The position numbers were made by a program, and so were the translations under genes. A DNA stretch of 64,000 nt, from positions 124,001-188,000 of the forward strand of contig JAATFU010000007.1 of the NCBI GenBank assembly GCA_015655045.1. Direction: 5' to 3'. This document shows, in pieces, positions 5,744 to 59,540 of the stretch. The notes under the pieces are model-generated. The model was not told the DNA's origin, did not search any database, and was given only the letters and a program-made list of their open reading frames with translations. The DNA is from Candidatus Saccharimonadota bacterium (GTDB lineage: Bacteria > Patescibacteriota > Saccharimonadia > Saccharimonadales > Saccharimonadaceae). Position 1 is the stretch's first letter. Each line of letters starts with the position of its first letter.

Positions 5744-6228
5744 TGACTAAGTATAACGAACTACAAATTAGTGCCAACAAAGATCGTAAACGTGTTGGTC
5801 GTGGTATCTCGGGTGGCCAAGGTAAGACCGCTGGTCGTGGTACTAAAGGGCAGGGCGCCCGTACAGGTAAAAAGCTTAATGCCATGTTCCAGGGTGGCCA
5901 ACGAGCACTTGTGAAGGCTGTACCAAAAGCTCGAGGCTTCAAGTCGCTCCGAGCACCCGCTCAAGTTGTCTATCTTGATCACTTGAATGCCTTTAAGGGT
6001 AAGGTAGTTGATAATGGTAGTTTGTTTGAGGCTGGCCTCATTACTTCACCATTTCAGGCGGTAAAAGTTATCCTTCGCGGTGAGTTAACTGAGAAGATCA
6101 CACTCAATGTCACGGGCGCAAGTAAAAGTGTCCAAGCGGCTGTCATCAAAGCTGGCGGTACATTTACAAAGACTGCAGTGCCTCTTAAGAAGAGTACTAA
6201 AGAAGCTGAAACTACCGACAAGAAATAG
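5743..6228 (+). CDS. rplO: 50S ribosomal protein L15
   Basis: 161 aa. The glycine/arginine-rich N-terminus (KRVGRGISGGQGKTAGRGTKG) and the GGQRALVKAVPKARGF segment identify L15, a late assembly protein. In most bacteria rpmD lies between rpsE and rplO; here they overlap. It is the last gene before a terminator. Confidence 0.97.
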   Translation: MTKYNELQISANKDRKRVGRGISGGQGKTAGRGTKGQGARTGKKLNAMFQGGQRALVKAVPKARGFKSLRAPAQVVYLDHLNAFKGKVVDNGSLFEAGLITSPFQAVKVILRGELTEKITLNVTGASKSVQAAVIKAGGTFTKTAVPLKKSTKEAETTDKK

Positions 6229-23898: not shown

Positions 23899-23973
23899 AG
23901 GGGCATAGTACAACGGTTAGTACATAGGTCTCCAAAACCTAGGATCGTGGTTCGATTCCACGTGCCCCTGCCA
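23899..23973 (+). tRNA. tRNA-Trp (CCA)
   Basis: 75 nt including encoded CCA. Acceptor stem AGGGGCA / TGCCCCT, anticodon stem TAGGT / ACCTA with loop CTCCAAA, anticodon CCA. T-arm GTGG TTCGATT CCAC. Its 3' end is the anchor of the repeat array that follows. Confidence 0.96.
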
Positions 23974-24062
23974 AACTGGAAATTATGAAATCAGAACTGT
24001 TAATCGGTTCTGATTTTTTATGCCAGCGTGACACATTTGAAACTTCATCTGTTATTTGGTTC
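23943..24062 (+). repeat. tRNA-Trp 3' half plus flank, left copy (candidate attachment site)
   Basis: This stretch recurs in diverged form at 27831-28016. The tRNA part is nearly identical in both. The downstream flank (around GTTAATCGGTTCTGATT, CGTGACACATTT, CATCTGTTATTTGGTTCTA) is conserved at roughly three quarters of positions by eye. It marks the left edge of a 4 kb accessory segment. Confidence 0.75.
23988..24019 (+). terminator. Terminator after tRNA-Trp
   Basis: AATCAGAAC / GTTCTGATT stem followed by TTTTTA. A degenerate version exists in the second copy near 27941-27969. Confidence 0.8.
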
Positions 24063-24081
24063 TAACCTAAATTGTTTATGT

Positions 24082-24110
24082 TTGATAATACCTACGCATA
24101 ATCTTATACT
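24082..24110 (+). promoter_or_regulatory. Promoter of the gene at 24131
   Basis: TTGATA (24082-24087), 17 bases, TATACT (24105-24110). The transcript has a short leader with AAGGAGG directly before the ATG. Confidence 0.7.
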
Positions 24111-24130
24111 GAAATAAACAAGGAGGTTAG

Positions 24131-24406
24131 ATGACAGAAATCATTACCATTAGTTACATTGAAGACGACCCTAAAGAAATAGAGCTTGTTGAAACAATCG
24201 GCGGTCGTATTCGCTCCTTAGGAGGTTTGGCTATTTTAACTCCTCTACGATTTGACGAAGATGGCCATGGCGGCGGAGAGACCCCAACAATTGATTTTCC
24301 TAATGGGAAAATACTTAGCGGAATGTCTAGCCTGAATCAACTGCTTGATAGCCAATATATTGAAGAGTACATACAGCCTGGTGTCGATATCGATATTCAA
24401 AATTAG
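24131..24406 (+). CDS. Small acidic hypothetical protein
   Basis: 91 aa, not recognised. Rich in Asp/Glu with a Gly-rich stretch (DEDGHGGGETPT), no membrane segment. Strong ribosome site AAGGAGG and a consensus-like promoter. First gene after tRNA-Trp in the accessory array. A 16-base perfect palindrome (AACCTATCGATAGGTT, 24427-24442) lies just after it. Confidence 0.7.
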   Translation: MTEIITISYIEDDPKEIELVETIGGRIRSLGGLAILTPLRFDEDGHGGGETPTIDFPNGKILSGMSSLNQLLDSQYIEEYIQPGVDIDIQN

Positions 24407-24462
24407 TACACTATTCATATATGGGAAACCTATCGATAGGTTATCCGGCTGCATCCTAAATC

Positions 24463-24542
24463 AACTTAGTTCTAATTTCGTACACGATGCTCTGCCAAGC
24501 ATAAGCACGATTATAAAAGTCTCCGAAATGGAGACTTTTTTG
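24463..24542 (+). repeat. Array module, copy A
   Basis: Contains GTTCTAA, then CTCTGCCAAGCATAAGC (24491-24507) and the hairpin AGTCTCC-GAAAT-GGAGACTTTTTT, followed by the TATGAT box of the next gene. On the minus strand it reads RAYAWQSIVYEIRTKLI and a stop. The hairpin can serve as terminator of the preceding unit. Confidence 0.75.
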
Positions 24543-24555
24543 CTATGATTAATCT

Positions 24556-24924
24556 ATGACAAAAGAACGAATGAATAGAAAAAACTTTATATTCGTATTT
24601 ATTACAGGTTTCGTTGTAGCGAATCTCTTACTAGTTATATCTTATTTTATTGATCAGATTAATACTCCACTGGGATCAGTAGTAGTCAGTCTGATAGGTA
24701 TAGTATTAATTTTATTAGCAGTCTATCTTGCGGTAGTCTGGATATTAGCAACCATCAAGAGGCTGCATGACTTCGATGTTACGGGTTGGCTTGCAATTAT
24801 ATTCTTCGTTACACCGGCACTTATCATCCTTGCTTTCATACCAGGAACGAAAGGTCCTAATCAATTTGGTGAGAAACCCAGTCGCGGGTTAGATCTTCGT
24901 TCTGTTTTTCTGTGGCGTAGATAG
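24556..24924 (+). CDS. DUF805 family membrane protein
   Basis: 122 aa. Three hydrophobic segments (about residues 10-32, 41-64 and 76-95). The family motifs are IKRLHDFDVTGW between the second and third segment and PGTKGPNQFGEKP after the third, matching DUF805 (YhaH-like). Function unknown. TATGAT at 24544-24549 ends 6 bases before the ATG, so the mRNA is leaderless. AT-rich compared with the core genes. Confidence 0.88.
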   Translation: MTKERMNRKNFIFVFITGFVVANLLLVISYFIDQINTPLGSVVVSLIGIVLILLAVYLAVVWILATIKRLHDFDVTGWLAIIFFVTPALIILAFIPGTKGPNQFGEKPSRGLDLRSVFLWRR

Positions 24925-25040
24925 AATCTATCTCATCCATGTTGAAGTTTAATTCATCCCCAAAAGTTTGGTTCACGTACTCTTCGCCCTGCCAAGCATA
25001 AGCGCAATGAAGATAGTCTCCTTTTTGGAGGCTTTTTGTT
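24917..25040 (+). repeat. Array module, copy B
   Basis: The longest form: TAGATAGAATCTATCTC, CCCCAAAAGTTTGGTTCACG, the core CCCTGCCAAGCATAAGC, then TCTCC-TTTTT-GGAGGCTTTTTGTT. The 26 bases TGGTTC-N12-CCCTGCCA match the tRNA-Trp 3' end in length, ends and 18 of 26 positions. On the minus strand it reads AYAWQGEEYVNQTFGDEL and onward to a stop, but has no start codon. Confidence 0.8.
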
Positions 25041-25081
25041 TATGCTTGCTAAAGAATATACTTCTTAACATAATAGTCATC

Positions 25082-26011
25082 ATGATTTCACCAGACACGC
25101 CAACTCCATTTGAGGGCTTAAGCAAAGCAGGAAAAGTTTGGGCGCAAGAGAATGCGCTTGGAGAGTTAAAGGATGACATAAATAAGGATCTAAAGGGACT
25201 TTATCTTGCCGGAACTTTACTATGGCAAGCGCATAGGCGCCAAATGCTCGCAGAGATCCAAAGAAACGGTGGTGTTAAGAACCTAAGAAGGCCGTCATTT
25301 AGCGGAGGACTCAATATCGTTGAACTACAAAACGGACATTCTATACTTGCTGACAAGTTCTTAAAAACACCAAAACTTCTCGTAAGCAGTGAAGTGCTTT
25401 CAGCGCAACCCGCCAGCACCACTTTTACCCAAACACACGAGCTACGTGTTGCCTTTGGTGGATCTCTCCTGGGCGGTAGCATGCAACGATCTGATTATGA
25501 CATTAACGGGCAGATGTTTGCTTCAGTTGGCCTTGATCAAATCATCAATGATGACAGTTTCTTTCCCGAAGAAATAGGGATAACAGAAAGCATTACAACA
25601 GCGATGGAGCCTAATGAGAGTGAATCTCACTCAAGAGATCACGTAAATCGAGCTCACTACTCAATCGCTACATTAATCTGGGGGTCTAGTGCGGACGCAC
25701 ACTCTTCACCTATGCCGGATCCTTATACAGACTACTCGGCTTACCGCAAGTGGGCGTTACGTGGCAACCCGCAAATGGACATCACGTTTCAGGCACCAGT
25801 ATTTCAAAAAGACTATGAGCAGCCAACAAAAGCGACTGTCATTGATAAGTATGGTAAGTTTCAGCCGAATGCGGAGGTGGCAATTACATCACTAACAAGG
25901 TTCCGCTCTTTATTGGCATATTATGCAACAAAACAATGTCCTGACCTTTTTCCAGCAAATGAAGAAGAAAAGTTTGGTTACCTTGCAGAACCAATGCTTG
26001 AACTTGAATAG
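25082..26011 (+). CDS. Nucleotidyltransferase-like protein (Pol-beta superfamily motif)
   Basis: 309 aa from the ATG at 25082 (MISPDTPTPF). The track start lies inside module B, so I reject it. Residues 126-141 (GGSLLGGSMQRSDYDI) fit the hG[GS]-x9-DhD pattern of nucleotidyltransferases, and Asp233 in QMDITF fits the third acidic residue. An N-terminal region of about 120 residues precedes the motif. Possible roles include an antitoxin- or toxin-type NTase or a CD-NTase; no membrane or nuclease effector is adjacent, so a defence role is only a guess. Two Cys or His clusters are absent. Confidence 0.6.
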   Translation: MISPDTPTPFEGLSKAGKVWAQENALGELKDDINKDLKGLYLAGTLLWQAHRRQMLAEIQRNGGVKNLRRPSFSGGLNIVELQNGHSILADKFLKTPKLLVSSEVLSAQPASTTFTQTHELRVAFGGSLLGGSMQRSDYDINGQMFASVGLDQIINDDSFFPEEIGITESITTAMEPNESESHSRDHVNRAHYSIATLIWGSSADAHSSPMPDPYTDYSAYRKWALRGNPQMDITFQAPVFQKDYEQPTKATVIDKYGKFQPNAEVAITSLTRFRSLLAYYATKQCPDLFPANEEEKFGYLAEPMLELE

Positions 26012-26086
26012 GTTCTAAGCTCATCCACTAGCGGCCGCCAAGCATAAGGATGATGATGAAAGTCTCCATTTTGGAGGTTTTTTGTT
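26011..26086 (+). repeat. Array module, copy C
   Basis: GGTTCTAAGCTCATCCACTAG, then GCCGCCAAGCATAAGGATGATG and the hairpin TCTCC-ATTTT-GGAGG followed by TTTTTTG. The left half belongs to the second sequence type (shared with D and F), the right half to the common core. Minus-strand reading PYAWRPLVDELRT. Confidence 0.75.
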
Positions 26087-26128
26087 TACGCTTGTCAGTA
26101 TTCACCTAGGGGTATAAAGTGATTATTA

Positions 26129-26542
26129 ATGGAACAAATCAAAAATAATTCAGTTCTAGTATATGAATCACCTAAAGATATGGATGATTTTGAGCGCAGT
26201 GAAGCCCAGCTAGAAGCCGCAAGAAATCGCGCAAAAAGTCTTATAGCCGATAATCGAGTGATGATAGAAGCACTTAAATCATATGGTCTCGGTCTTACAG
26301 AAGAACTAGACTTATCGACATTTATCGGACCCGTCGCCGTATATTTACAAGAAACCGAGGCTACAAATTTGAGAGATAGGCTTTTTCGCTGGTCTACTTA
26401 TTTCACACAGAATATCGATGATATCACCGTGTTTAGCGATTCGATTGAGAATGGAATATTAACTGATCCGAGTACTATGTTTGACGTAGTGGCAATGACG
26501 GAGACTCTATTAAGAGCTGCTGCAGGTGTTATCAAGAAGTAG
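26129..26542 (+). CDS. Helical hypothetical protein
   Basis: 137 aa, not recognised. It is mostly helical by inspection (ERSEAQLEAARNRAKSLIADN, quoted to 20: RSEAQLEAARNRAKSLIADN), acidic, with no membrane segment. It follows the NTase-like gene but is separated from it by module C. TATAAA at 26113-26118 ends 10 bases before the ATG, so it may be leaderless. Confidence 0.7.
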   Translation: MEQIKNNSVLVYESPKDMDDFERSEAQLEAARNRAKSLIADNRVMIEALKSYGLGLTEELDLSTFIGPVAVYLQETEATNLRDRLFRWSTYFTQNIDDITVFSDSIENGILTDPSTMFDVVAMTETLLRAAAGVIKK

Positions 26543-26546
26543 TAAA

Positions 26547-26578
26547 AGTTCGAAGCTCATCCACTAGGGGCTGCCAAA
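26547..26578 (+). repeat. Array module, copy D (half site)
   Basis: GTTCGAAGCTCATCCACTAG followed by GGGCTGCCAA. Only the left half and the GCTGCCAA end are present; the CATAAGC part and hairpin are missing. Minus-strand reading FWQPLVDELRTFTTS and stop. Confidence 0.65.
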
Positions 26579-26657
26579 AAATCACAAAAGAAAAAGATGC
26601 GATTGATTCAATACAGTATCTTTCGCATCCTTATCTACTTACAATTATAGCTAAATG

Positions 26658-27038
26658 CTACAAAATATCAATAACCTTTAGAGATTTCGTCACGATCTTA
26701 AGATGCGTGATGCTATGGTTTTGTGTTTTAAGATATGCATTAATCCGAGCAACTGCTTTGTAATAATTCATGGGCGTTCGGTTAAGATCAATGACTATGT
26801 TTGACGACTGCTTACGTGCAGAACGTAAATTATTCTCCATTGTTTTCTTGCCATTACCGAGTGGACTCTTAATTTCCCATCGGACTCCGCCAATATCCAA
26901 ATCTGGAGTCTTTTGATGCCCTGGACGAAGAAAAATTACGTCCATCTTAAAGTGTTCCGCAAGTAGTAGTGCGACAGACATTTCATGATCCTTGGGATGA
27001 TCTTTCTGAGTGGTTTCGACTATTACTTTATATTTCAT
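26658..27038 (-). CDS. CdiA-type PD-(D/E)xK nuclease-like protein
   Basis: 126 aa. The central TPDLDIGGVRWEIKSPLGNG holds the D-x(n)-ExK catalytic pattern of PD-(D/E)xK nucleases, and the RSARKQSSNIVIDL helix-strand after it resembles the CdiA C-terminal tRNase type. Such proteins act as toxins in contact-dependent inhibition or as stand-alone nucleases. No signal peptide and no evident immunity gene. TATAAT ends 9 bases before the ATG. A paralogue lies at 28669 on the other strand. Confidence 0.65.
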   Translation of the reverse strand: MKYKVIVETTQKDHPKDHEMSVALLLAEHFKMDVIFLRPGHQKTPDLDIGGVRWEIKSPLGNGKKTMENNLRSARKQSSNIVIDLNRTPMNYYKAVARINAYLKTQNHSITHLKIVTKSLKVIDIL

Positions 27039-27070
27039 CTCTAGTTTATTATACTTTCTTGGGCCTTTCG

Positions 27071-27192
27071 CAGATAGAGTCTATCTCCTCTATATCGAAG
27101 TTTAACTCATCCCCAAAAGTTTGATTGACGTACGCTTCGCCCTGCCAAGCATAAGCACGATGACTGAAGTCTCCGAAATGGAGGCTTTTTGT
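27071..27192 (+). repeat. Array module, copy E
   Basis: Closest relative of copy B: AGATAGAGTCTATCTCC, CCCCAAAAGTTTGATTGACG, the core CCCTGCCAAGCATAAGC, and TCTCC-GAAAT-GGAGGCTTTTTGTT. On the minus strand it is open from a TTG through AYAWQGEAYVNQTFGDEL to a stop 10 bases before the nuclease gene at 27038. About half the differences from copy B are synonymous in that frame. Confidence 0.8.
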
Positions 27193-27204
27193 TATACTCA
27201 AGCT

Positions 27205-27708
27205 ATGAATTTAGAGTATCCATATCAATTAACAACCTTCATAGATATCGAACCAAAGATAGGTGAATCTGTTTATTATGGTGAACGAGGGTGGTTTCCG
27301 CAGATTGCGCTCAAACGGAGGTTTAAAGCAATGGGCATTTCAGAAGCAGAATTAATTGAAATGATATCCCATTACTGTAAATCGAGAACATCTTTTATTA
27401 TTCAAACTGGAAAGCTAGTGAAACCAGAACGTATGCCCGTGAGGGTATTGGAAGTAGACGACCTACACGGTTACTTGATTGATTTTCATAAAGATTTTAT
27501 ATCGTACATGGAGAAATCCATGTCATCAAGATATCCAGATCGCGATGGAGTAAATTACCAGCCGCATGTCACTGCAGAATTTAATGGACAAATGGTGATT
27601 GATGATAAGAAGTTTACCGACAAACTGTACGAAATAAATCGAGTATTTTTGCTTAAGGACGTAGATAACGAAAACTCTGTAGCATGCGAGAGCTTTGATC
27701 TTAATTAG
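27205..27708 (+). CDS. Hypothetical protein with a 2H-phosphoesterase-like HxT motif
   Basis: 167 aa from the ATG at 27205 (MNLEYPYQL); the track start is inside module E. YQPHVTAEF near residue 133 fits the second H-x-T/S-x motif of 2H phosphoesterases and RNA ligase-like proteins. The first HxT is not evident (TTFIDI stands at the expected place), so catalytic activity is doubtful. TATACT at 27193-27198 ends 6 bases before the ATG: leaderless. Confidence 0.55.
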   Translation: MNLEYPYQLTTFIDIEPKIGESVYYGERGWFPQIALKRRFKAMGISEAELIEMISHYCKSRTSFIIQTGKLVKPERMPVRVLEVDDLHGYLIDFHKDFISYMEKSMSSRYPDRDGVNYQPHVTAEFNGQMVIDDKKFTDKLYEINRVFLLKDVDNENSVACESFDLN

Positions 27709-27714
27709 AATGAA

Positions 27715-27744
27715 AAGTTCTAAGCTCGTCCACTAGGGGCTGCC
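27715..27744 (+). repeat. Array module, copy F (half site)
   Basis: AGTTCTAAGCTCGTCCACTAG and GGGCTGCCG, the second half-site type shared with C and D. Immediately after it lies a hairpin GATCAGC-TTCT-GCTGGTC followed by TTTTTAT (27761-27780), a likely terminator of the 27205 gene. Confidence 0.65.
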
Positions 27745-27756
27745 GAATAAAATCGA

Positions 27757-27780
27757 TCAGCTTCTGCTGGTCGTTTTTAT
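27757..27780 (+). terminator. Terminator after the 27205 gene
   Basis: ATCAGC / GCTGGT stem around TTCT, followed by CGTTTTTATTTG. Lies between half site F and the second tRNA-Trp-like copy. Confidence 0.55.
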
Positions 27781-27830
27781 TTGATTGGAGAATGTCGAGT
27801 TGAAGCAGGATCTGCGAGCGCAGCGAGTAA

Positions 27831-28016
27831 GATCGTGGTTCGAGCACGAGGAGCAACGAAAATGTGTTTACATATTTTCGTGTGACGATGTTGCTATCTT
27901 TAGATATTCCACGTGCCCCTGCCAAATCAGAAATCATTAAATTAGGACTGTTAATTGATTCTAACTTTTTATGGCAACGTGACACATTTTAATTTGTATC
28001 TGTTATTTTTGTTCTA
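27831..28016 (+). repeat. tRNA-Trp 3' half plus flank, right copy, interrupted
   Basis: GATCGTGGTTCGA (27831-27843) and TTCCACGTGCCCCTGCCAAA (27907-27926) are the tRNA-Trp T-arm and acceptor strand, split exactly inside the T-loop by 63 bases. The flank after it matches the flank of the true tRNA gene at roughly three quarters of positions. The 5' half of the tRNA is missing, so this is not a functional tRNA. Confidence 0.8.
27844..27906 (+). repeat. 63-base structured insert in the tRNA-Trp-like copy
   Basis: It contains nested inverted repeats: AGCAAC (27852-27857) pairs with GTTGCT (27889-27894), and ACGAAAATGTG pairs with CATATTTTCGT inside it (one mismatch). It encodes no ORF. Confidence 0.65.
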
Positions 28017-28020
28017 GCTT

Positions 28021-28055
28021 AAAATAAAAGTGGCCGCCCCTTTCAGGGCGGACAC
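28021..28055 (-). terminator. Terminator of the 28070 gene
   Basis: On the minus strand GTGTCCGCCC / GGGCGGCCAC (one mismatch) around TGAAAG, followed by TTTTATTTT. Confidence 0.8.
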
Positions 28056-28069
28056 TCTCGCTTGAAGTT

Positions 28070-28420
28070 TCAGGACGCTGGCTCCAGCTCTGACTCTTTC
28101 ACCGTCTGAGCTTCCTCGTTCTTCTGGTCTCGCTTGTAGTTCTTGTACACGAGATACACAGCCATCAGCGCGATGAGCACGAAGGCGAAGATGAGCATCG
28201 CTGTCAGAGAGTCGACAGATCGTTGCAGGTTGTCGATTGAACTCCGTTGGTTCAAGATGTAGTTCGGGTAATCCTTCGGGTTGATGCCGCAGATGCCGTC
28301 GTCTTGCGTGGCTCCAGGAGAGCTGTTGCAGACGGCAGCACTTGCACTCGCTGCGGGAATGAGAACCGCAGTAAAGGCGAGCGTGAGCGTTCCGAGCAGA
28401 ACTGCGATGATGCGTCGCAT
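28070..28420 (-). CDS. Small exported membrane-anchored protein
   Basis: 116 aa. Signal peptide at residues 1-29 (MRRIIAVLLGTLTLAFTAVL, then ASASAA), two cysteines in the short exported region (VCNSSPGATQDDGICG), a coiled or helical stretch, and a transmembrane segment at about residues 73-93 followed by a charged cytoplasmic tail. It is visibly GC-richer than its neighbours and has a Shine-Dalgarno GGAAGG. Function unknown; likely acquired from a higher-GC genome. Confidence 0.75.
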   Translation of the reverse strand: MRRIIAVLLGTLTLAFTAVLIPAASASAAVCNSSPGATQDDGICGINPKDYPNYILNQRSSIDNLQRSVDSLTAMLIFAFVLIALMAVYLVYKNYKRDQKNEEAQTVKESELEPAS

Positions 28421-28578
28421 CGTCTTTCCTTCCAGTAGTGAGAGTTACGAAACTGAGAACGACAAGATGAGGCATCTTATCACACTCAATCTCGCACTTG
28501 CTCTATCAATTTGTAATACTTATTATAACACCAGAAGTTATGTTTGTATATTAAGTAGTTTACGGTCACTAAATTAAT

Positions 28579-28656
28579 TTGGTTCTAACTTCGTTTATAA
28601 TGCCCTGCCACGCATAAGCGCAATAAAATTAGTCTCCGATTCGGAGGCTTCTTGTT
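28579..28656 (+). repeat. Array module, copy G
   Basis: TTGGTTCTAACTTCG, the core GCCCTGCCACGCATAAGCG, and TCTCC-GATTC-GGAGGCTTCTTGTT, followed by TATAAT. Minus-strand reading CAYAWQGIINEVRTKLI and stop. Confidence 0.75.
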
Positions 28657-28668
28657 ATAATTGACTGA

Positions 28669-29079
28669 ATGACTAAAGTGGTAATTGAAAAAGAACTTGG
28701 TGCGACACCTACAATCATCGAAAGTGAGGTTGTTGATATTCTTGTACAAAACGGCATTGTAAGGGAACATGTTTTATTTTTAAAGCCAAACCGTGTAATT
28801 GGCTCAAAAACACCAGATATACAGATAGATCACGATGTAAAATGGGAAATAAAGTCTATCACTGTCGATGGAAAATATACCCTTGCACATGCGCTTCGGC
28901 AAGGTCTACTGCAATCTAAAAACCTCATTATCGATATACGTCGCTTAAGGCCAGGTATGCAAGATAAGTATAGGCAAAAAATCAATAAAGAATTCCTTAT
29001 GACTAAATCATGGCAGTCTGCAGTGATAGTATTAAAGGCCCATAAAGGTAATGTTTCATTATTGACTCTGGAGAAATAA
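28669..29079 (+). CDS. CdiA-type PD-(D/E)xK nuclease-like protein, second copy
   Basis: 136 aa. KTPDIQIDHDVKWEIKSITV has the same D...WEIKS core as the protein at 26658, and LRQGLLQSKNLIIDIRRL matches its following helix-strand. Identity outside the core is low, so the two are old paralogues or independent acquisitions. Cytoplasmic by sequence. TATAAT at 28656-28661 ends 7 bases before the ATG: leaderless. Candidate nuclease or toxin; no partner gene is adjacent. Confidence 0.65.
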   Translation: MTKVVIEKELGATPTIIESEVVDILVQNGIVREHVLFLKPNRVIGSKTPDIQIDHDVKWEIKSITVDGKYTLAHALRQGLLQSKNLIIDIRRLRPGMQDKYRQKINKEFLMTKSWQSAVIVLKAHKGNVSLLTLEK

Positions 29080-29145
29080 TTTGCTACTATAAATTGTAAA
29101 GAGACGTCGCTCCTGCTGGATAGCTCGAGCCGCGTCTCTTTTTTT
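29062..29145 (+). terminator. Terminator after the 28669 gene, with a possible internal promoter
   Basis: AGAGACG (29100-29106) pairs with CGTCTCT (29133-29139), followed by seven T. TTGACT (29062-29067), 17 bases, TACTAT (29085-29090) would start a transcript of about 48 bases that consists almost only of this hairpin. The gap 29146-29206 shows nothing else. Confidence 0.6.
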
Positions 29146-29206
29146 GAGCATATCTGTTATTTTAAAGACTATTCATAAATGACACCTAACTCCACTACCT
29201 TGAGGG

Positions 29207-29335
29207 TTAATCATTCCCAAAAGTTTGGTTCACGTACTCTACGCCATGCCAAACAGAACGAAGAGCAATTTCAAGCTCTTTTTTTGTTTTACGACCTCTG
29301 TTATTTTCTTCGTCATTTACGGTTTGGTTATTCAT
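29207..29335 (-). CDS. 42-residue protein sharing its C-terminus with the array modules
   Basis: Not in the ORF track. ATG at 29335 after AGGAGGATAGAAA, a strong ribosome site, and TAA at 29209. The N-terminus is polar and basic (MNNQTVNDEENNRGRKTKKE); the C-terminus LRSVWHGVEYVNQTFGND shares EYVNQTFG with minus-strand readings of modules B and E. Function unknown. It is the only complete gene form of that sequence in the window. Confidence 0.6.
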   Translation of the reverse strand: MNNQTVNDEENNRGRKTKKELEIALRSVWHGVEYVNQTFGND

Positions 29336-29399
29336 TTTCTATCCTCCTATTATTTCCTTAGTTTTTAATGTTTTCTGAGCCACCACTGCAGCAAATTTT

Positions 29400-29423
29400 A
29401 TCTTATCATCTTGATGATAAGAT
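29400..29423 (+). promoter_or_regulatory. Operator and promoter of the toxin-antitoxin pair
   Basis: A perfect inverted repeat, ATCTTATCATC-TT-GATGATAAGAT. It overlaps the -35 TTGATG (29411-29416), which is 17 bases from TATTAT (29434-29439). The position fits autorepression by the ribbon-helix-helix antitoxin. Confidence 0.75.
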
Positions 29424-29458
29424 GCACTTGTGCTATTATGAACATAAGGAGAAATAAT

Positions 29459-29677
29459 ATGCGTACCACAATCACACTTAATGACAAATTGTTCCGTGCC
29501 CTAAAGATCCGCGCTGCCGAAACTGACGAAACTATCAGCAGTATCGTGGAAGACGCCGTTAAGTATCAGCTACTCGAAGATTTAGAGGATATCGAAATAG
29601 CTAAAAAGCGTCAAAATGAGCCTACTCTTTCTTTCGAATCACTCGTCACAACGTTAAAGGCCGAGGGACTCTTGTAA
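29459..29677 (+). CDS. Ribbon-helix-helix antitoxin (CopG/RelB type)
   Basis: 72 aa from the ATG at 29459 (MRTTITLNDKLF), after AAGGAGAAATA. The N-terminal TITLNDKLFRALKIRAAETD fits a ribbon-helix-helix DNA-binding fold, and the C-terminal half (DLEDIEIAKKRQNEP) would bind the toxin. Next gene 22 bases downstream is a RelE-type toxin. Confidence 0.88.
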   Translation: MRTTITLNDKLFRALKIRAAETDETISSIVEDAVKYQLLEDLEDIEIAKKRQNEPTLSFESLVTTLKAEGLL

Positions 29678-29699
29678 GAGTTCTTCGATTAGGCCAGAT

Positions 29700-29960
29700 A
29701 TGTATCAAATCATATACGTTAAGCCCGTCGAGAAAGAACTACGTAAACTCGACGCCTCCATTCGTAAAGCAATCGTAAAAAAGATTCTAGCACTTGCCGA
29801 AACACCTAGGCCACAAGGAGTGACTCAACTCCATGGATCGAATAACCTTTACCGTATTCGTCATGCTGACTACCGGGTAGTGTACGAAATTCGTGATAGT
29901 AATCTAATTGTGCTTGTTATTAAAGTTGCTCATCGACGCGAAGTGTATCGAGATTTCTAA
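29700..29960 (+). CDS. RelE/ParE-superfamily toxin
   Basis: 86 aa. It starts MYQIIYVKPVEKELRKLDAS and has the family end LYRIRHADYRVVYEI followed by VIKVAHRREVYRDF. The basic and aromatic residues of RelE-type mRNA interferases are present (R in RIRHADYR, H and R in VAHRREVY). It likely cleaves ribosome-bound mRNA when released from the antitoxin. Confidence 0.9.
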   Translation: MYQIIYVKPVEKELRKLDASIRKAIVKKILALAETPRPQGVTQLHGSNNLYRIRHADYRVVYEIRDSNLIVLVIKVAHRREVYRDF

Positions 29961-29982
29961 ACTTTACGATCATTCATCTATC

Positions 29983-30075
29983 TCGAAGCTCATAGATAGA
30001 ATTTATTTCCTCTATATCGAAATTTTAACTCATCTCCAAAGTTTGATTCTAGAACTCTTTGCCCTGCTAGAGCTT
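29983..30075 (+). repeat. Array module, copy I (degenerate)
   Basis: CATAGATAGAATTTATTTCC, CATCTCCAAAGTTTGATTC and GCCCTGCTAGAGCTTAA. The 26-base block ends CCCTGCTA and is the same length as in B, E, H and tRNA-Trp. The minus-strand frame is broken here. Confidence 0.6.
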
Positions 30076-30090
30076 AATAGATTAGATAAC

Positions 30091-30180
30091 ATGGCTAAAT
30101 ACAAAAGATGGCATAGTGCCTCGCGCAAGCGTCTCTTAAAAAAGAAAGTAACAAGCCTCGAGTTCAAACTCGGTCACTAA
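30091..30180 (+). CDS. 29-residue basic peptide (uncertain)
   Basis: MAKYKRWHSASRKRLLKKKV and onward to a stop at 30178-30180. Very basic. No convincing ribosome site. The 3' part GAGTTCAAACTCGG resembles a tRNA T-arm, so this may be a tRNA or module remnant rather than a gene. Confidence 0.3.
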   Translation: MAKYKRWHSASRKRLLKKKVTSLEFKLGH

Positions 30181-30182
30181 AC

Positions 30183-30217
30183 AAGAAGTCTCCACGATGG
30201 AGACTTCTTGTTATACT
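30183..30217 (+). promoter_or_regulatory. Module hairpin and -10 box before the methyltransferase gene
   Basis: AAGAAGTCTCC-ACGAT-GGAGACTTCTT, then GTTATACT (TATACT 30212-30217). It is the right half of the array module without the CTGCCAAGCATAAGC core. The ATG follows 6 bases later. Confidence 0.65.
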
Positions 30218-30223
30218 GAGCGG

Positions 30224-31138
30224 ATGAGAAGTGATCTAATCGACAAAAGACTGAAAGAAATTAATGCTATTATTCCTTTTTCTAAGATTCTCGACCGTAA
30301 CGCTAATAATATGAACAATATCGCTAACTATTACAGGCTAAATAGGCTTGCGTATCGCTTAATCAATAGTAGAGAAGGTTTTGTACATATGGGTATCAGT
30401 AGGGATGGAGTATTTAAGGATACCGACTTTCTTGAACATGCAAATCTTATATCTAGATTTATGAATAATGTGAATACACTAGACGTGCTCGAGCTCGCTG
30501 CAGGAAAAGCGGCGACAACCAAATATCTCGCTAAAAAATATCCGACTATCTCCTTTACCGGCTTAGACCTACCGAATGGGCAACTTAATATTTCATCGAG
30601 TAAAAATACTAATTTGAGATTAGTTGAAGGTGACTATCACGATTTAACTCAATTTGATAACAATAGCTTCGACGTCGTATATATAATTGAAGCATTATGC
30701 CATGCTATCAATAAGAAACAAGTTATAAAAGAAACGAATAGGATATTGAAACCAGGGGGTGTATTTGTAATATTCGATGGCTATGCATCAAAAGAGCGAG
30801 GCTCCATGTCAGCAATAGAGACCCTTGTGTCTGATCTTACGTATAGCAGTATGATGGTGACTAAAGACGATCATTCATATGCTGAATTGCGTAGTAATCT
30901 CATCTCTTCTGGTTTTAATATTATCGAGGAAGAAAATCTTTCGAAATACGTTCTTCCTACTATGGAACGATTTGAGAAGAAAGCTATTAAATATTTCCAG
31001 AAACCCTTATATGCAAAAGTTTTAAATACAATCCTCCCAATTGAGGTAACGGGCAATGCCGTGGCCGCTTATCTTATGCCCTTATCTATTAAAGCCGGGC
31101 TACACCAGTACTGGGTTACTGTTTCGAAGAAAGAATAG
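30224..31138 (+). CDS. SAM-dependent methyltransferase, class I
   Basis: 304 aa from the ATG at 30224 (MRSDLIDKRL); the track start lies in the hairpin. Motif I is VLELAAGKAATTKYL (about residue 88), motif II FTGLDLPNGQ, then FDVVYIIEALCH and the post-motif RILKPGGVFVIFDG, matching the Methyltransf_11/UbiE type. The substrate is unknown. AT-rich, leaderless. Last cassette of the accessory region. Confidence 0.85.
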   Translation: MRSDLIDKRLKEINAIIPFSKILDRNANNMNNIANYYRLNRLAYRLINSREGFVHMGISRDGVFKDTDFLEHANLISRFMNNVNTLDVLELAAGKAATTKYLAKKYPTISFTGLDLPNGQLNISSSKNTNLRLVEGDYHDLTQFDNNSFDVVYIIEALCHAINKKQVIKETNRILKPGGVFVIFDGYASKERGSMSAIETLVSDLTYSSMMVTKDDHSYAELRSNLISSGFNIIEEENLSKYVLPTMERFEKKAIKYFQKPLYAKVLNTILPIEVTGNAVAAYLMPLSIKAGLHQYWVTVSKKE

Positions 31139-31327
31139 TTCGAGGCTCGTATGTCAGAAATTGCCGAATTATAAATCATGCATTTAGAGTCGTCAGTCGG
31201 TTCAAAGTTTCTATATTGATATGGCTCATATTAGATAGAACAAACTATCGAGTTAAATAGTTTAGTGTCGACTCTAATGCCAAGAGATAATCTGTCGTAT
31301 TATACTAATGGGGCTATACTAAGAGAT
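31139..31327 (+). other. Right edge of the accessory region
   Basis: GTTCGAGGCTCG near 31139 and TTGCCGAATT near 31162 are weak traces of the half site D/F. After this, base composition returns toward that of the core genes. No further gene is seen until the TATACT box at 31315-31320. Confidence 0.4.
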
Positions 31328-31678: not shown

Positions 31679-32200
31679 ATGAAAACAGTAGACCACGAGG
31701 AATTTAATCGTCTTATACAGGTAGCTAACCTGAAACCTCGTTTGAAAAAAGAACTCAAATTCGAAAATAGTACCATTGAGCTTCCCGACGATTGGTCCGA
31801 GTTCGAACTCATCTCGATCGCTGATCGCACAGGTGATAAAGGTATTTTACTGTTACAACCCAAGGAGACGCTTTTTATAGCACCCTATGAGCTAACGCGT
31901 CGCATTATTGATTCGAGTACGGGACGTGATCGAGCTATTATCTGTGACTTTTGTTATACCTGGCAGCCCGGCTCCAATGCTGCATCTATTACCTTCTTAG
32001 ATACAGCTACGAAACATAGCGTAGGATTCTTATGTTGCAGTGATCTTGCCTGTAGCCAACACGTCCGAACGGCAACGAAGGCCTCACTTCGCTCTCGGGC
32101 TCATCTACGCGAGAATCTCTCGAATGACGAGCGCGTCTCACGGCTTAAATCACGGCTGTTAAAGAAAATTGAGCAGCTGCACCTGCAACCTATTACGTAG
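31679..32200 (+). CDS. FBP-domain protein (EF-G-binding, FusB-like zinc finger)
   Basis: 173 aa. The C-terminal half has a treble-clef cysteine pattern: CDFCYTWQPG, then CCSDLACSQHVR. This is the FBP_C type zinc finger found in FusB, which binds EF-G and rescues it from fusidic acid. The N-terminal half is helical and less conserved. A role on the ribosome is a family inference. One of few clear zinc-binding proteins in the window. Confidence 0.78.
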   Translation: MKTVDHEEFNRLIQVANLKPRLKKELKFENSTIELPDDWSEFELISIADRTGDKGILLLQPKETLFIAPYELTRRIIDSSTGRDRAIICDFCYTWQPGSNAASITFLDTATKHSVGFLCCSDLACSQHVRTATKASLRSRAHLRENLSNDERVSRLKSRLLKKIEQLHLQPIT

Positions 32201-41420: not shown

Positions 41421-41526
41421 AATTCGTATCAAGAGTGCAGCGAGAGAACTAGCTCAATGACCTGCCGGCAACCAGCATTCTTTGTAATGGTGCCTCCTCT
41501 AGCCCCGCGCGGGGAAAGATAAGTCA
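41421..41526 (+). ncRNA. SAM-I (S-box) riboswitch upstream of metK
   Basis: TATCAAGAG at the 5' side and GATAAG at the 3' side form P1. The conserved ATGACCTGCCGGCAACC (SAM core), then CATT-CTTTGT-AATGGTGC (P3/P4 region) and a GCCCC / GGGG stem before AAAGATAAG follow. These match the SAM-I pattern in order. The ribosome site AAAGGAG lies 40 bases after the riboswitch, with no clear terminator between, so control is probably at translation or by a local structure. Confidence 0.85.
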
Positions 41527-41581
41527 TCTTATTCACTTCTGTATGCGTCGAGGCATGATACGCAGTAAAGGAGTTATTTTT

Positions 41582-59318: not shown

Positions 59319-59540
59319 TTGACAACAGCCACCTCCCTTTGGTATACTCCTGCTAGACATCACCAAAGACAGTAGCCGTGGAAACACTTAATTTGCTACC
59401 GAGGATCATGTAACACATACATTTTTCGATAGAGTCTTTGGCAGTGCGAGGTCCAAAGACTTTTTCTTTTGTCCACGCGTGCCGTCTGGTTCTTTCACAA
59501 TTTGGTCGGATATACCTAACTACAACTAAAGGAGATTTTT
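59319..59540 (+). promoter_or_regulatory. rplJ promoter and attenuator-like L10 leader
   Basis: TTGACA (59319-59324), 18 bases, TATACT (59343-59348). The leader of about 185 bases holds a terminator, AGTCTTTGG (59433-59441) with CCAAAGACT (59453-59461) and a T-run. CCAAAGAC also occurs at 59363-59370 and can pair with the same GTCTTTGG, giving an antiterminator fold. L10 leaders in other bacteria are controlled by L10 or L10-L12 binding. The rest of 59135-59318 shows no gene. Confidence 0.75.

Follow-up and report, generated by a model that had tools for sequence, protein, structure and literature searches.

A tRNA-Trp-anchored array of small gene cassettes in Saccharibacteria, most likely moved by large serine recombinases

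Introduction

Why should the 3′ end of a tRNA-Trp gene, together with the DNA behind it, recur in a diverged and interrupted form some 3.9 kb downstream? The question is raised by a 64,000-nt stretch of DNA (hereafter the window) from a Candidatus Saccharimonadota bacterium (GCA_015655045.1, contig JAATFU010000007.1, positions 124,001 to 188,000), whose genome of 848 kb is 99% complete. A preliminary description regarded the second copy as an old boundary of an inserted element, or as a former tRNA-Trp end displaced by later insertions. Our analysis, which drew on assemblies, many of them fragmented, points to an array of small, mostly single-gene cassettes that has accreted at the sole tRNA-Trp gene, most likely moved by large serine recombinases (LSRs) that would use the tRNA 3′ end as attB, a reading to which we assign a probability of about 0.75. 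A literature search that covered few subscription papers returned nothing relevant on Saccharibacteria or Patescibacteria in connection with integrons, tRNA-Trp or serine recombinases.

Results

An interrupted second copy of the tRNA-Trp 3′ end

The platform is a tRNA-Trp(cca) gene at 23899–23973 on the plus strand, identified by both ARAGORN and Rfam. It is the sole full tRNA-Trp match in the genome, no second one having been found elsewhere in the 848 kb, and its 3′ end (T-stem, acceptor strand and CCA) is the presumed attB. A repeat finder pairs 23955–24057 with 27906–28008, without gaps and at 83% identity over 103 nt, at a distance of 3951 bp; with an E value of 6e-26 against the whole genome, the repeat is not due to chance. 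The second copy extends about 85 nt beyond the CCA. Within the tRNA part, TTCCACGTGCCCCTGCCA is found exactly at 23956–23973 and 27907–27924, and GATCGTGGTTCGA, which makes up the rest of the T-arm, exactly at 23943–23955 and 27831–27843. In the second copy these two stretches are separated by 63 nt, with the break in the T-loop. The preliminary description was thus right that a diverged copy of the T-arm, acceptor strand and downstream flank lies 3.9 kb away, that it is interrupted, and where it lies. A tRNA-Trp gene split at the same place in the T-loop, by about 30 nt, is seen in a relative (L051, G027:C21, oriented 1–106), in whose genome (85% complete) no intact tRNA-Trp was found.

Eleven units behind the tRNA gene

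Between 23974 and about 31166 eleven units can be recognised, all oriented on the plus strand and each, with the exception of the one named X, bearing one gene or one toxin–antitoxin pair. The repeats between the genes share a stretch of about 29 nt that ends in TGCCA, the end site, behind which a hairpin terminator usually comes. Cassette 1 (23974–24497), whose left end has its second copy, the repeated flank, at 27925, carries a 91-aa ORF (24131–24406) and closes with a type-B end site (24469–24497, tail WQSIVYEIRT). It is followed by cassette 2 (24498–24994) with a DUF805 ORF (24556–24924) and a type-F site (24966–24994, tail WQGEEYVNQTFGDELNF...), cassette 3 (24995–26040) with a 309-aa ORF (25082–26011) and a type-A site (26012–26040), and cassette 4 (26041–26576) with a 137-aa ORF (26129–26542) and a further type-A site (26548–26576, tail WQPLVDELRT). 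Cassette 5 (26577–27147) holds a CdiA_C-domain ORF on the minus strand (26658–27038) and a type-F site (27119–27147), while cassette 6 (27148–27745) holds a 167-aa ORF (27205–27708) and a type-A site (27717–27745); a homologue of cassette 6 in genome G299 (L096:14420–15019) matches it from site to site at 69% over 605 nt.

The seventh unit, X (27746–27924), to which no ORF was assigned, contains the interrupted tRNA-Trp 3′ half (27831–27843 and 27907–27924). It abuts Y (27925–28610), whose left end (27925–28019) is the repeated flank and which carries a membrane-protein-like ORF of 116 aa on the minus strand (28070–28420) ahead of a type-B site (28582–28610). Three units complete the array: cassette 9 (28611–29251) with a second CdiA_C-domain ORF (28669–29079) and a type-F site (29223–29251), cassette 10 (29252–30069) with an RHH/ParE toxin–antitoxin pair (29459–29960) and a degenerate site (30041–30069), and cassette 11 (30070–31166) with a methyltransferase ORF (30197–31138) and a degenerate site (31138–31166) that is the last recognised. 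The cargo consists of small unrelated genes, namely the DUF805, CdiA_C-domain, RHH/ParE and methyltransferase genes and several without matches, and PADLOC gave only weak hits on the array proteins. Between 23.97 and about 31.2 kb the GC content, apart from a local rise at 28.0–28.5 kb, is about 35–45%, against about 45–50% outside.

The right border of the array lies near 31166, although its position is uncertain. Just past it stands an FBP_C-domain gene (31679–32200), which is also found close behind tRNA-Trp in a relative (L043:576–1091) and which may be either the native right neighbour or another cassette. Further along the window, Rfam places a SAM riboswitch (41423–41525) ahead of a metK-like ORF at 41543; it also identifies an L10 ribosomal protein leader (59345–59475).

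The end site in other Saccharibacteria

A weight matrix built on the end site (consensus GTTCtAAgcTCGTCCACtAGGGGCTGCCA, 39.7 bits) was run on 366 kb of Saccharibacteria loci and gave 129 copies, every one of them on the same strand. As many of these loci were picked for having sites, the density should not be read as a genome-wide rate. Sites of types D and F, and those at 30041–30069 and 31138–31166, lie outside the matrix and were assigned by eye. In a whole-genome pattern search, the site was present in 23 of 393 genomes of the order, with up to nine sites in 6.3 kb and no hits for a reversed control. Among 84,980 species, 20 of the 24 stretches with the exact pattern belong to Saccharibacteria-type MAGs, some of them labelled simply 'bacterium' although their contigs are those of genus members, and the relatives with the same features, where named, are Candidatus Saccharibacteria. 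Only 3 of 106 sites fall inside ORFs, compared with 70% of random positions; the median unit length is 679 bp, and the longest ORF lies on the array strand in 60 of 75 units. In seven further regions the tRNA at the head of the array is again tRNA-Trp on the same strand.

Almost every species of the genus has a different sequence directly after the CCA of tRNA-Trp, and no homologues of the array genes of the window were found at the tRNA-Trp loci of the genus, the FBP_C-domain gene being matched but lying outside the recognised array. One cassette is 98.3% identical over 363 bp, from site to site, in two species whose chromosomes are 81.4% identical up to tRNA-Trp. Blocks shared between loci start at a site in 50% of cases and end at one in 20%, where 10% is the random expectation; that the coincidence is partial is due in part to the divergence of genes inside cassettes and to the absence of type D from the matrix. 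The array behind the tRNA gene has the variable genes and the repeats of the tRNA 3′ end that define a tRNA-anchored additive genomic island.

Cassettes X and Y are separate modules

The right end of X resembles the tRNA-Trp 3′ end, its final 18 nt being identical to the tRNA. In three other species (L035, L097/L066 and L099) X is the unit next to tRNA-Trp; in the window it is the seventh. It matches the first unit in UBA6040 (L066/L097) at 87.7% over 187 nt, from CTGCC to CTGCCAA, and the first unit in L035 at 94% over 96 nt. In these three species, X is followed by different cassettes that start with AGCATAAG. The flank part of the repeat forms the left end of Y. Cassette 1, behind tRNA-Trp, has a matching left end, and in L097 the flank module begins exactly behind a site (10648/10649).

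Thus relatives have X and Y independently of each other, again bounded at the CCA, and in the three relatives with X that were compared the flank part (27925–28016) does not travel with the tRNA part. Since X and the flank module recur separately, the second tRNA-Trp end is the CCA seam at which two independent modules abut and not one duplicated block; the preliminary view of an element boundary with a repeated flank is in this respect wrong or incomplete, given that the parts before and after the CCA occur apart. Nor did any insertion-free genome show both copies in tandem as an old duplication.

X gave no Rfam match to a conserved RNA. Together with other first cassettes it is predicted to form stable folds, whose stems are inconsistently kept among about four distinct copies. 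A different first unit, free of ORFs and strongly folded, occupies the first ~200 nt behind tRNA-Trp in L036, L043, L044 and L046 and apparently also ends in a tRNA-like CCA site. A phage origin was considered and rejected: the X/Y stretch matched none of 50,697 phage records, and both the site pattern and a 30-mer of X are absent from IMG/VR.

Large serine recombinases at the same tRNA ends

LSRs are common, and in five genomes (G017, G023, G001, G146 and G299) an LSR gene abuts tRNA-Trp. The LSR elements at tRNA-Trp in G017 and G023 (L034 and L048) end in a type-B site, and that of G299 (L096), at the head of an 11-site array, has a type-A site without mismatch at its end, so that the end sites are common to autonomous LSR elements and LSR-free cassettes. 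A protein with Resolvase, Recombinase and zinc-ribbon domains lies beside the attachment site in the tRNA-Trp relatives L034, L047 and L096. More widely, in 24 of 30 loci an LSR-C homologue lies next to the 3′ end of a tRNA (tRNA-Asn, -Gln, -Gly, -Ser or -Trp), and downstream of tRNA-Asn and tRNA-Gln there are sites with the same arm, the last bases of which are changed to fit that tRNA. In G389 (L143, G389:C28), two LSR elements stand in tandem at tRNA-Asn, and the second starts at the end site of the first. A sequence search of the PDB with the LSR gave no match. There is no LSR inside the array of the window, and no LSR-C homologue was found in the source genome at E <= 1e-30; the array may therefore be immobile at present or depend on visiting elements.

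Two observations concern other possible platforms. In the same genome (L032, G000:C8:244000–262000), the terminator flank of tRNA-Asn recurs 2.5 kb away behind ...GTGAGCCA (near C8:252893 and C8:250343), and because this flank resembles the tRNA-Trp flank, tRNA-Asn may be a second platform. A tRNA-Trp 3′ fragment, GTTCGATTCCACG[T/A]GCCCCTGCCA, lies behind a shared coding end instead of a tRNA in L076 (7317–7347, G002:C1), where an LSR element follows it, and in L057 (about 5895–5925), where cassettes follow it; it is a possible secondary platform.

End sites encode recombinase tails

The LSR gene runs antisense to the tRNA and reads through the CCA. Of 36 tRNA-adjacent LSRs, 28 share the frame in which the CCA becomes a TGG codon (p = 6e-8 in a binomial test that ignores relatedness). 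Behind tRNA-Trp the LSR tail is WQGHVESNHDPRFWRPMY or similar. Read backwards, the cassette end site gives the LSR tail W-Q-P-L-V-D-E-L-R-T, about ten last codons. Among 94 distinct sites, codon position 2 is the most conserved, with an entropy of 0.49 bits compared with 0.94 and 0.99, and the substitutions that occur often are silent or exchange similar residues. The tail frame is open for a median of 16 codons, compared with 3 and 7 in the other frames. In G389, the second LSR, which lies behind a site and not a tRNA, has a tail ...NWLTLVDELRND taken from the end site of the first element; the LSR of G013 ends in WLGLVDSNFK.

Because the sites code for LSR tails, attP is apparently contained in the 3′ end of the LSR gene, and it follows from the sequence that integration would exchange the LSR tail. 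That this exchange might control the direction of the reaction is only a proposal. The common cassette left end, AAGCATAAGC, matched no LSR that we collected. Type-F sites (24920–24994, 27073–27147 and 29994–30069) are conserved over about 75 nt and give a longer antisense tail, WQGEEYVNQTFGDELNFNMDEIDSIY, and no LSR with this tail was found.

Discussion

We envisage the accretion of the array as follows. Each cassette ends in a half-site of about 29 bp, and because the final bases of this half-site are those of the tRNA 3′ end, the tRNA would stay intact at each insertion. The tRNA 3′ end would most likely serve LSRs as attB, and cassettes without an LSR, which have their end sites in common with autonomous elements, would be moved in trans. 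As the half-site corresponds to the last ~10 codons of the LSR gene, attP would be placed in the 3′ end of that gene; on integration, the native tail would be shifted to the far end of the element, while the integrated LSR would gain a tail coded by the antisense strand of the tRNA. Growth would probably take place next to the tRNA, with older units pushed away and X moved from first to seventh place. Insertion proximal to the tRNA is the simplest reading because the LSR elements observed at tRNA-Trp occupy the first place, as does X, the seventh unit here, in three species. Several points count against this model: the source genome has no close LSR-C homologue, the common left end matches no LSR that we collected, several sites were assigned by eye, the ends of shared blocks coincide with sites only in part, the 63-nt insert in X is not accounted for, and repeated insertion at the tRNA would need attP to recombine with attL, which LSRs normally do not do.

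The properties of the array invite comparison with several other explanations. It is integron-like in its one-gene cassettes in one orientation, its toxin–antitoxin cargo, its fixed platform and the site at the 3′ end of each gene, and it could be imagined as a true integron without a nearby integrase (CALIN-like), with attC cassettes moved by an IntI-type tyrosine recombinase. However, the one tyrosine recombinase in the genome (a single PF00589 match) is an XerC/D-like housekeeping gene away from the array, as in most of the genus, the consensus lacks the paired GTTRRRY / RYYYAAC ends of attC when read by eye, and the end sites are common to LSR elements, all of which makes an integron very unlikely. 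The host XerC/D-like enzyme might instead drive modules of the pdif or IMEX type, for an Xer-like recombinase is present in nearly every genome and many cassette left ends, AAGCATAA, slightly resemble an Xer arm. This too we consider very unlikely: all sites are direct, in place of the alternating orientation of pdif/Xer sites, what lies to the right of the CCA is in many cases unrelated sequence, and the ends of LSR genes account for the sites.

A site-specific recombinase could also be dispensed with altogether, if the array had been built by homologous recombination, for example after DNA uptake, with the repeated sites and terminators as the regions of homology. The lack of a cognate LSR in the genome and junction repeats that share up to about 100 nt would suit such a process, yet the boundaries fall at the CCA even though the sequence to its right is usually unrelated, and 29 nt of half-conserved homology is short, so that little probability attaches to it. 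Closest to the original interpretation is one old element, or tandem elements, at tRNA-Trp that has since been broken up, with the second copy as its far attachment site or as a displaced tRNA end. The last 18 nt of X, which are those of the tRNA, and its first place in three other species agree with this, but the copies are separated by six further sites, and the flank and tRNA parts are found apart in relatives, which leaves it improbable. From the preliminary description we retain a boundary of inserted DNA, though not of a single element, and a probable displacement by later insertions, though of cassette X.

We thus favour the array of cassettes moved by LSRs. Such an array would offer genome-reduced Saccharibacteria a concrete route by which to gain single genes across species and to stockpile them behind a tRNA gene, and a 98% identical cassette beside an 81% identical chromosome is a sign of recent transfer. 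It would be a cassette system based on serine recombinases instead of IntI, and it yields the hypothesis of a recombinase whose own tail is swapped by the reaction that it catalyses. In its boldest form, which we regard as somewhat doubtful, the hypothesis would be that of a second, integron-independent gene-cassette system in Saccharibacteria, with tRNA genes as platforms, LSRs as recombinases, the 3′ end of the LSR gene as attP, a tail swap that replaces a directionality factor in setting the direction of the reaction, and mini-cassettes that travel by means of their own copy of the tail-coding half-site.

Perhaps the closest parallel is with the additive fGIs of the Methylophilaceae (for example, fGI-2 of Ca. 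Methylopumilus), which grow behind a tRNA whose last 20 nt are found repeated, and with the tycheposons of the same study, described with a tyrosine recombinase of their own (PMC10872708). Like the array, these islands have grown by successive insertions behind a tRNA, contain copies of its 3′ end and hold mostly unknown cargo. In contrast to tycheposons, the array described here is associated with LSRs, consists mostly of single-gene cassettes and has end sites that are the ends of LSR genes; no element-borne tyrosine recombinase was encountered, nor a second tyrosine recombinase in the genome. With integron arrays it shares single-gene cassettes in one orientation, a site after each gene and a fixed platform, but it has no IntI, attC ends or attI, and its platform is a tRNA gene.

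Serine recombinases are also at work in SCC elements and related LSR islands, in which CcrAB acts at the 3′ end of rlmH and elements with or without their own recombinase stand in tandem. Insertion at the 3′ end of a gene and tandem arrangement are thus shared, whereas here the target is a tRNA, the units are much smaller and attP seems to be part of the LSR gene's own end. In this last respect the LSRs recall the SSV-type archaeal integrases, tyrosine recombinases with attP inside the integrase gene, which is split on integration. In both cases integration into a tRNA would alter the recombinase gene, but where the SSV gene is split, the LSR would exchange only its last residues.
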